IMG/VR virus record: IMGVR_UViG_3300010885_002439 | Span: 1 to 33,565 of that record | DNA length: 33,565 nucleotides | Strand: one strand, 5' to 3' | Source: a virus | In this document: one piece after another, positions 29,373-30,659 of the stretch | How the letters are laid out: each line of letters begins with the position of its first letter | How positions within the stretch are numbered: position 1 is the stretch's first letter | Translations under genes and position numbers: made by a program | The notes under the pieces: model-generated | What the model was told of the DNA's origin: nothing | Seen by the model: only the letters and a program-made list of their open reading frames with translations | Databases searched by the model: none

Positions 29373-29777
29373 ATGAGCAAGCGGTTTAGTGATCCAGACT
29401 TTGAACAGCTCTGCGTGAACTTTTGGCAGATAGCCAAAGCACACCAGTATGGTGGACCACGTTTGCCACCATCGTTTAGCAAAGTATTGAACCAAGGCTC
29501 GATGGACTACAACAAAGACTATCCACTCAATCCATACTTCCCAGCCTTTGTGATGGTAATAGATAGCTTGGAGATTGGAGAGCAGATAGCCTTCTATGCA
29601 ATCTACATAGGATCAGCATATAGGCTAGGCAAGAAAGTACCGATCAAAGTCATAGCAAATGAGATAGGAGTTAACCGATCCAACTTCTACAAGAAGGCAG
29701 ACCGAGCAGCAAAGAAGGCATGGTTACAGACTAAGGCTATTATGTACCTGTACACTACGCTGCATAGTGAGCAGTAA
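29373..29777 (+). CDS. Q-like late antiterminator candidate
   Basis: A 134-residue protein with GGPRLPPSFSKVLN, PAFVMVIDSLEIGEQIAFYAIYIGSAYRLGKKVPIKVIANEIGVNRSNFYKKADRAAKKAWLQTKAI. The last third is a helix-turn-helix with the arrangement of phage Q or RinA type activators of late transcription. Gene order fits: it lies at the end of the early rightward operon and directly before the noncoding region that leads to terminase and late genes. No Shine-Dalgarno is obvious. The call is moderate, based on pattern and position. Confidence 0.55.
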   Translation: MSKRFSDPDFEQLCVNFWQIAKAHQYGGPRLPPSFSKVLNQGSMDYNKDYPLNPYFPAFVMVIDSLEIGEQIAFYAIYIGSAYRLGKKVPIKVIANEIGVNRSNFYKKADRAAKKAWLQTKAIMYLYTTLHSEQ

Positions 29778-29793
29778 TACAAGTGATACAAGT
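29777..29793 (+). repeat. ATACAAGT direct repeat
   Basis: ATACAAGT at 29777-29784 and 29786-29793, spaced by one base, overlapping the stop codon of the Q-like gene. Confidence 0.6.
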
Positions 29794-29831
29794 ATATACA
29801 TTTTCGGGTCGAGGGCATTTGCTAAGAAGTA

Positions 29832-29851
29832 ATGTTGCAAAAGATGTTGCA
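29832..29851 (+). repeat. ATGTTGCA direct repeat
   Basis: ATGTTGCA at 29832-29839 and 29844-29851, period 12, inside the long inverted repeat. TTGCA is also part of the early -35 boxes. Confidence 0.5.
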
Positions 29852-29871
29852 TTAACACCTTCATGCGTAAG

Positions 29872-29887
29872 CGGACATTTTTGTCCG
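29872..29887. other. CGGACA stem-loop
   Basis: CGGACATTTTTGTCCG forms a perfect 6-bp stem with a TTTT loop. No T run follows on either strand, so it is not a typical terminator. Confidence 0.6.
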
Positions 29888-29938
29888 ATTAGCTATTAAC
29901 CCTGAAAATGTAATATATGCGTATCTCCCAACAAGGAA

Positions 29939-29958
29939 TTGACCTAGTGTAAACACTA
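29939..29958 (+). promoter_or_regulatory. Operator-like palindrome behind a TTGACC box
   Basis: TTGACC (29939-29944) looks like a -35 box, and the perfect palindrome TAGTGTAAACACTA (29945-29958) follows at once in the spacer position. No strong -10 lies at 17 bases (TTACAA), so it may need an activator. Confidence 0.45.
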
Positions 29959-29960
29959 TC

Positions 29961-29990
29961 TTTACAAATGTATAAAAAAATGTTTATACC
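29961..29990 (+). promoter_or_regulatory. Possible late promoter with dyad
   Basis: TTTACA (29961-29966), 18-bp spacer and TATACC (29985-29990). The spacer and -10 contain the perfect dyad GTATAAA-N6-TTTATAC (29970-29989). Match to consensus is modest. Confidence 0.35.
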
Positions 29991-30054
29991 TAAATAGTTA
30001 CCCGATTAGAACTGAACTGGATATGTACAGAACGGCAAGTAATTATCTCTAAAT

Positions 30055-30072
30055 GTTATACACCAGTATAAC
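30055..30072. repeat. GTTATAC inverted repeat
   Basis: GTTATAC at 30055-30061 and GTATAAC at 30066-30072 flank ACCA, a perfect 7-bp dyad. It shares the ATAC core with the dyad at 29970-29989. Confidence 0.6.
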
Positions 30073-30092
30073 TTTTAACGTAGTCACACAAT

Positions 30093-30132
30093 GTATCCAA
30101 TATGGGATACAAAATAACAGGATACAAAATAA
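30093..30132. repeat. GGATAC site cluster before small terminase
   Basis: GTATCC (30093-30098) is the inverse of GGATAC at 30105-30110, and GGATACAAAATAA occurs at 30105-30117 and again at 30120-30132 (15-base period). The last copy ends 47 bases before the terminase start codon. Confidence 0.65.
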
Positions 30133-30179
30133 TGATAATACTGTATATTTTCGCTAACCTAGAGAGAGCTATCCCCTAG

Positions 30180-30659
30180 ATGTCAGCCACTCCGATTGAT
30201 CCAAAGATTACTGAGGCGGTTGTTATAGATTGGCGTATGGGGCAACTCAGCCAAGATGACATAGCAGACAAGCACAAGATCAGCAAAGGCATGGTTAACA
30301 AACTATGCAAAGGCATGGCACAAGATGCCAAGGCTACTGTGACCGTAGGAATCCAATATAATCAAGCACTAAAAAATCAAGATGACCGAATGGTGACCGC
30401 CATTGAGGATACGGTTAGCAAACAGGTTCAGCGCATGGAGTGGCTAAATACCGCTGCACTTAAAAATGCCAGCGATGCAATGAAAGCTCCATGTGATGGA
30501 CAAGTAGATTTCAAGCATAGAGCAGATACCATAAGCAAAGCCAAAGAAGTTCTGGTTGGCAAGAACCCAGAAATAGCAGTACAGGTAAACACCCAGCTCA
30601 ATTCAATATCTCTCATAGAACACGAAGCGTTAAGCCGTAGGTTGATGAATGAGATATGA
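30180..30659 (+). CDS. terS: Terminase small subunit
   Basis: A 159-residue protein whose first 45 residues form a helix-turn-helix (KITEAVVIDWRMGQLSQDDIADKHKISKGMVNKLCKGM) typical of small terminases that recognise the packaging site. A central helical part (NQDDRMVTAIEDTVSKQVQRMEWLNTAALKNASDAM) would make the oligomer ring, and the end binds the large subunit. The stop overlaps the large subunit start (ATGA), as usual. The repeats just upstream are natural candidates for its binding site. The Shine-Dalgarno is weak (AGAGAGAG, 12 bases before). Confidence 0.8.
   Translation: MSATPIDPKITEAVVIDWRMGQLSQDDIADKHKISKGMVNKLCKGMAQDAKATVTVGIQYNQALKNQDDRMVTAIEDTVSKQVQRMEWLNTAALKNASDAMKAPCDGQVDFKHRADTISKAKEVLVGKNPEIAVQVNTQLNSISLIEHEALSRRLMNEI

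Follow-up and report, generated by a model that had tools for sequence, protein, structure and literature searches.

Known Q-type antiterminators are thought to act after transcription has been initiated. The elements described for them in the literature lie between the −35 and −10 elements of the promoter (PMC6606751, PMC9371919, PMC7969949, PMC11150451), e.g., the TGAGCA repeats of phage 21 Q, which are 8 bp apart in the late promoter PR′ (PMC6606751). AlpA of Pseudomonas aeruginosa, a Q-like antiterminator with a helix-turn-helix, uses a short promoter element with a terminator downstream, consisting of one site (GGGACG) in the same interval and occupied by a single molecule (PMC9371919, PMC7969949). 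In the Caulobacter gene transfer agent, GafYZ combines activation with antitermination at the first promoter of the particle-gene cluster; IHF takes part besides these two proteins, the element of GafZ is placed between −10 and −35, and the terminator is found beyond the first gene (PMC11150451).

Here we analysed a DNA stretch of 33,565 nt, a single IMG/VR virus record that is referred to as the window, in which the gene of a Q-like regulator (29373–29777, + strand, 134 aa) and a small-terminase gene (TerS; 30180–30659, + strand) flank a noncoding block (29778–30179) on its 5′ and 3′ sides, respectively. The original prediction for this block was a late-control and packaging region, crowded with dyads to which several proteins may bind. 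We consider it probable that one part of it, 30093–30160, is a phage late promoter which is controlled by the Q-like protein encoded just upstream. The locus resembles phage 21 Q/QBE (PMC6606751) in its predicted sigma-region-4-like helix-turn-helix, its 6-bp direct repeats, the placement of the putative late promoter just downstream of the regulator's own gene and a −10-like pause element in the initial transcript, here a candidate, and the fold prediction matches 21Q weakly. Unlike those of phage 21 Q, the repeats in the window lie at about −35 and −50, with 15 bp from one to the next, and a third site is present in inverted orientation; the protein is without detectable sequence similarity to 21Q. 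A Q-like protein with a helix-turn-helix, here predicted, a short promoter element and a downstream terminator are shared with AlpA, although antitermination is only proposed here and AlpA has its one site between −35 and −10. The combination of activation and antitermination that is known for GafYZ is likewise only proposed for the window, where neither the use of two proteins and IHF nor an element between −10 and −35 has its like.

Results

The noncoding block and its repeats

The block comprises 402 nt with 34% GC and all open reading frames that touch it are at most 46 aa long. It is the longest noncoding gap in the window, as predicted for the ~400 bases between the Q-like gene and the terminase, while the accompanying statement that the window has almost no other gaps is only roughly right, given further gaps of 236, 188, 166, 120 and 90 nt. 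The dyads and direct repeats listed at the outset are all present, but their supposedly unusual density comes down to a mild excess over shuffled sequence. Perfect arms of at least 6 bases number 15, compared with 8.3 ± 2.7 in dinucleotide shuffles (4 of 200 reach 15), there are no perfect arms of at least 8 bases in the block, and for arms of at least 7 its number is equalled by 8 of 166 sliding windows. For the 5′ part, the top-scoring gapped inverted repeat was matched in 156 of 500 shuffles and is not significant, and an ATAC-core dyad at ~30050–30077 is within chance and not conserved. Two features of the block are above chance, i.e., the folding potential of 29780–29930 and a cluster of GGATAC, with three sites against 0.19 expected (none of 1000 shuffles).

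Dyad conservation across the whole block was rejected, with blastn of the block against the relatives giving nothing beyond chance. A distant blastn against phage records matched the large-terminase gene alone, and an Rfam search of the block returned no family at the gathering score and none convincing below it. Alignment with related phages showed that ~30093–30160 is kept but that the remaining dyads are not; the 5′ ~310 nt (29778–30090) had no counterpart in any relative found, and in this part the original prediction of dyads kept among relatives is refuted.

As a separate observation, an open reading frame at 424–1683 of the window, which is made up of many degenerate ~20-residue repeats (ESANAQDTVSE-like), scatters GGATAC words at multiples of 60 bases.

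Architecture of the promoter module

Protein searches with the window's proteins led to two kinds of phage, carrying either a similar Q-like gene (52–67% identical) or a similar terminase, and comparison of the gaps between the Q-like and small-terminase genes among relatives gave one piece in common, which immediately precedes the terminase start. In the window this module lies in the 3′ quarter of the block, directly upstream of the TerS start, and consists in order of an inverted pair GTATCC-6-GGATAC, a second GGATAC at 15 bp, 18 bp, TATATT, TTCGC and TAACCT. Half-site A (GTATCC, the inverted GGATAC; 30093–30098, − strand) is kept in every relative of the clade and is the partner of half-site B (GGATAC; 30105–30110, + strand), which is also conserved and lies 15 bp upstream of half-site C (GGATAC; 30120–30125, + strand) in every lineage. 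Half-site C in turn is placed exactly 18 bp before a −10-like hexamer in every lineage. This hexamer of the predicted late promoter, TATATT (30144–30149, + strand), is invariably TAYATT in the clade, and the distant lineage L064 has TACAAT at the same place. The B–C period of 15 and the C to −10 spacer of 18 are fixed among relatives, whereas the A–B gap is 6–7 bp and varies by one base.

If TATATT is the −10, C spans −36 to −31, hence the −35 position, and B falls near −50; the promoter has no consensus −35 (GATACA, matching 3 of 6 bases) and the transcript start is predicted at ~30156. An alternative −10, GATAAT (30134–30139), was dropped, not being conserved in relatives. TAACCT (30155–30160, + strand) has the form TAnnnT of a candidate second −10-like (sigma pause) element. 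It recurs in most lineages, with TAnnnT following the −10 at 5–6 nt in the window clade, L064, L140, L137, L142 and L167, but is absent from L169, PBR31 and L166, the lineages with TCCGCA. The readable site is maybe longer than 6 bases, because ACAAAATA-like bases are shared downstream of B in most lineages. In the window clade, no intrinsic terminator was found on the way from the promoter to TerS. The module would be a new variant of the Q-type site, as in every lineage C ends 18 bp before the −10 and B is another 15 bp upstream, whereas the known sites are found between −35 and −10.

Linkage to the Q-like gene

A scan of 2.9 million viral contigs by DNA pattern alone found the module in 32 contigs, of which 30 carry, immediately upstream, a gene related to the Q-like gene of the window and two are truncated at that place. 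Homologues that are 52–67% identical to the Q-like protein always directly precede the module, and among 145 records, including phages with a related terminase, it was never found away from a Q-like gene. Two scans of genome contigs revealed no relatives in bacterial genomes. In the 30 contigs and in the window, the putative promoter separates the Q gene from the late operon; terminase genes come after it, and no other gene is common to all loci at this position. Comparison of the window with the modules of diverged relatives gave z values of 7.6–11.3 over shuffles, always at ~30090–30166. In the window, 319 nt separate the stop of the Q-like gene from site A; most relatives have 4–146 nt here, and longer distances are confined to loci with inserted genes.

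Linkage does not extend to the terminase. The window's TerS and that of the closest module carriers have a global identity of 17–21%, the background level of unrelated proteins, and in some carriers the large terminase belongs to another family than that of the window, where TerL, preceded by TerS, matches phrog_38 and Terminase_6C. TerS itself has a weak match to the small-terminase family phrog_1206. Conversely, phages with the window's TerS type (60–68% identical; L009, L010 and L040) have no module and carry other sequence in its place. As the carriers' TerS is unrelated and phages with the same TerS are without the module, it goes with the Q-like gene rather than with packaging, and the packaging role in the original prediction was therefore abandoned.

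Insertions were observed at several of these loci. In L103 (726–1270) and L114 (3277–3821) a 168-aa gene follows directly after the half-sites, with a TTG start between C and a −10-like TAATAAT stretch; here an inserted gene has seemingly separated the late promoter module from TerS. Differing genes are inserted between the Q-like gene and the late promoter in L137 (5346–6387), L142 (2931–3811) and L167 (107–961), including, by eye, PAPS-reductase-like and DNA-methylase-like proteins, and the late promoter remains at the head of the late operon despite these inserts.

Half-site words in distant lineages

Distant relatives of the Q-like protein (20–27% identical) keep the inverted A, the B–C period of 15 and the 18 bp from C to −10, but the words differ. 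L064, whose Q-like protein is ~24% identical, has GTCGG / CCCGAC / CCCGAC at spacings of 15 and 18, followed by its TACAAT hexamer and a terminator, and a generic sigma-70 promoter scan calls the same promoter. Xanthomonas phage PBR31 (MT119766), encoding a 26% identical Q-like protein that is annotated as antiterminator Q, shares TGCGGA / TCCGCA / TCCGC(A/G) with L169, again at 15 and 18 and with a terminator after the module; unlike the window, PBR31 has this other half-site word, a weak though correctly spaced −10 (TAGACT) and no TAnnnT. The words of L140, L137, L142 and L167 are CCCTAC/(C/T)CCGAC. In L140 the module (GTAGG / CCCTAC / CCCGAC) overlaps the end of its own Q-like gene, and in the other three it lies 0.86–1.04 kb downstream of this gene, beyond the inserted genes; these three modules were seemingly missing at first and were found only after geometry and word had been fixed. 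L166 carries GTGCGG / TCAGCA / TCCGCA at a similar place.

A strict word-free scan for the geometry, covering 2.76 Mb on both strands, gave only four matches that do not adjoin a Q-like gene. A relaxed scan alone is not stringent, with 13% of random 4.5-kb pieces matching (true sites included), and weight was therefore placed on the strict scan and the word-specific matches. The geometry was not found for L141/L143, nor for the unrelated phrog_79-like Q of L073, and its absence from the latter indicates that the 15/18 signature is specific to the window's Q-like branch. Judged from the sequences, the half-site word changes along with the Q-like protein while the spacings stay fixed.

The Q-like protein

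The window's Q-like protein had no match in curated families (Pfam, PHROGs, NCBIfam), and phrog_79, 'anti-termination protein Q-like', was touched only by the distant members L141 and L166 (E 0.045 and 0.22). A fold model built with 16 sequences (pLDDT 80, pTM 0.75) has six helices, of which the last two form the predicted helix-turn-helix. Fold matches of this model in the PDB are mainly sigma region 4 domains, none of them individually significant (all E > 0.4), and the top 50 include the phage 21 Q chains 6p18, 6p19, 6p1b and 6jnx (TM ~0.4, E > 0.4). A sequence search of solved structures returned nothing. The modelled fold, together with the touches of phrog_79, suits a Q-like protein of its own branch.

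The 5′ part of the block and structured RNAs

The stretch 29785–29925 is prone to structure, with a long imperfect inverted repeat that closes ~140 nt around an inner GCGGACATTTTTGTCCG hairpin. Folding of 29780–29930 has a z of −4.5 on the + strand and −4.9 on the − strand (none of 200 shuffles) and takes in the 'long-range pair' and 'hairpin' noticed originally. This stretch may be a structured RNA, a cruciform or a small insertion.

Relatives with a gap of ~200 nt have a different structured RNA in the same slot, with strong covariation and a pseudoknot, which was looked for in the window and is not there. It is ~90 nt long (L113:2190–2310, L092:2708–2830, L091:3105–3225, L119:5432–5552, L123, L097, L020), has a loop-3′ pseudoknot AGGCAGA/TCTGCCT and occupies either the interval from the Q-like gene to the late promoter or the position ahead of TerS; 97.7% of cells are paired, 10 of 31 pairs show double changes, and it belongs to no Rfam family. 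Another element absent from the window is a tiny, highly conserved open reading frame at 24 loci (L040:4961–5035, L002:5915–5990, L010:2990–3065, L097, L020 and others), which is usually preceded by an HNH gene and followed by Q-like, TerS or other genes. It ends in IGQLIPFSDAG, with its stop codon within the loop of the hairpin GCWGG-ATAAACGTAA-CCWGC, whose arms show compensatory changes (GCTGG/CCAGC, GCAGG/CCTGC, GTTGG/CCAAC). This hairpin had no Rfam match at the gathering score and looks like a leader-peptide or attenuator element.

Discussion

The predicted role in late control is supported for ~30093–30160, where a conserved promoter module stands next to the Q-like gene and changes its word with the Q-like protein. 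There is no need to invoke the binding of several proteins, as a single DNA-binding protein plus RNA polymerase fits the conserved sites. The Q-like protein would bind the half-sites, one of them on the −35 position, and so control late transcription; promoter activity, pausing and antitermination we infer. Two Q-like subunits would occupy the direct repeat of B and C, and the third site, A, would be read in inverted orientation. With C on the −35, the sigma-region-4-like helix-turn-helix of the protein probably helps polymerase to start; alternatively, the protein may capture polymerase just after the start, at the TAnnnT pause element. As an antiterminator, it would then likely accompany polymerase along the late operon, from the terminase onward. 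The terminators after the promoter in L064 and L169/PBR31 are as expected for an antiterminator, and in the window clade a terminator might lie further on, as it does for GafYZ (PMC11150451), or the protein may be mainly an activator.

In its fullest form our reading is tentative and less likely than not: an uncatalogued branch of Q-like proteins would use a three-half-site promoter at which one subunit replaces sigma region 4 at −35, acting first as activator and then as antiterminator, with words and recognition helices having diverged together under fixed 15/18-bp spacings. That the protein is instead a plain activator, which recruits polymerase to the late promoter from −35 and −50 and is no antiterminator, we regard as rather unlikely. 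The site positions, the weak −35 and the missing terminator before TerS in the window clade would all suit it, but in the related lineages L064 and L169/PBR31 the same module is immediately followed by a terminator, TAnnnT is similar to a pause element, and the fold similarity takes in 21Q.

It is improbable that the half-sites are operators of another phage regulator, e.g., a repressor, co-inherited with the Q-like gene. Linkage alone cannot separate neighbouring genes, and binding by the Q-like protein is a prediction. However, the words change with this protein over deep divergence under a constant geometry, no other gene is shared at that position, and the linkage survives an insertion of ~0.9–1 kb between gene and site. 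Very improbable is the view that most of the block is a neutral AT-rich spacer with dyads by chance, as might be read from a dyad density that exceeds shuffles only mildly, from the folding of 29931–30092 (z −1.0, no better than shuffles) and from the lack of the 5′ 310 nt in relatives. It is already refuted for the conserved 30093–30160 and fails at 29785–29925 with its folding, while 29931–30090 may be compatible with it. We attach next to no weight to the view that the small terminase binds the GGATAC cluster as a pac or cos site for packaging, which the repeated dyads directly upstream of TerS might suggest, and rejected it, as TerS is swapped between module carriers, the module is kept with two TerL families and missing in phages with the window's TerS type, and the spacing to the −10 is invariant and promoter-like.

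With the late promoter under Q-like control as the preferred reading, this family, having sites on and above −35, constant spacing and interchangeable words, would offer a clean natural series in which the passage of such a protein from promoter to polymerase could be tested. Furthermore, the signature of period 15 and spacer 18 could be used to locate late promoters, together with the corresponding regulators, in uncultured phages outside curated families.
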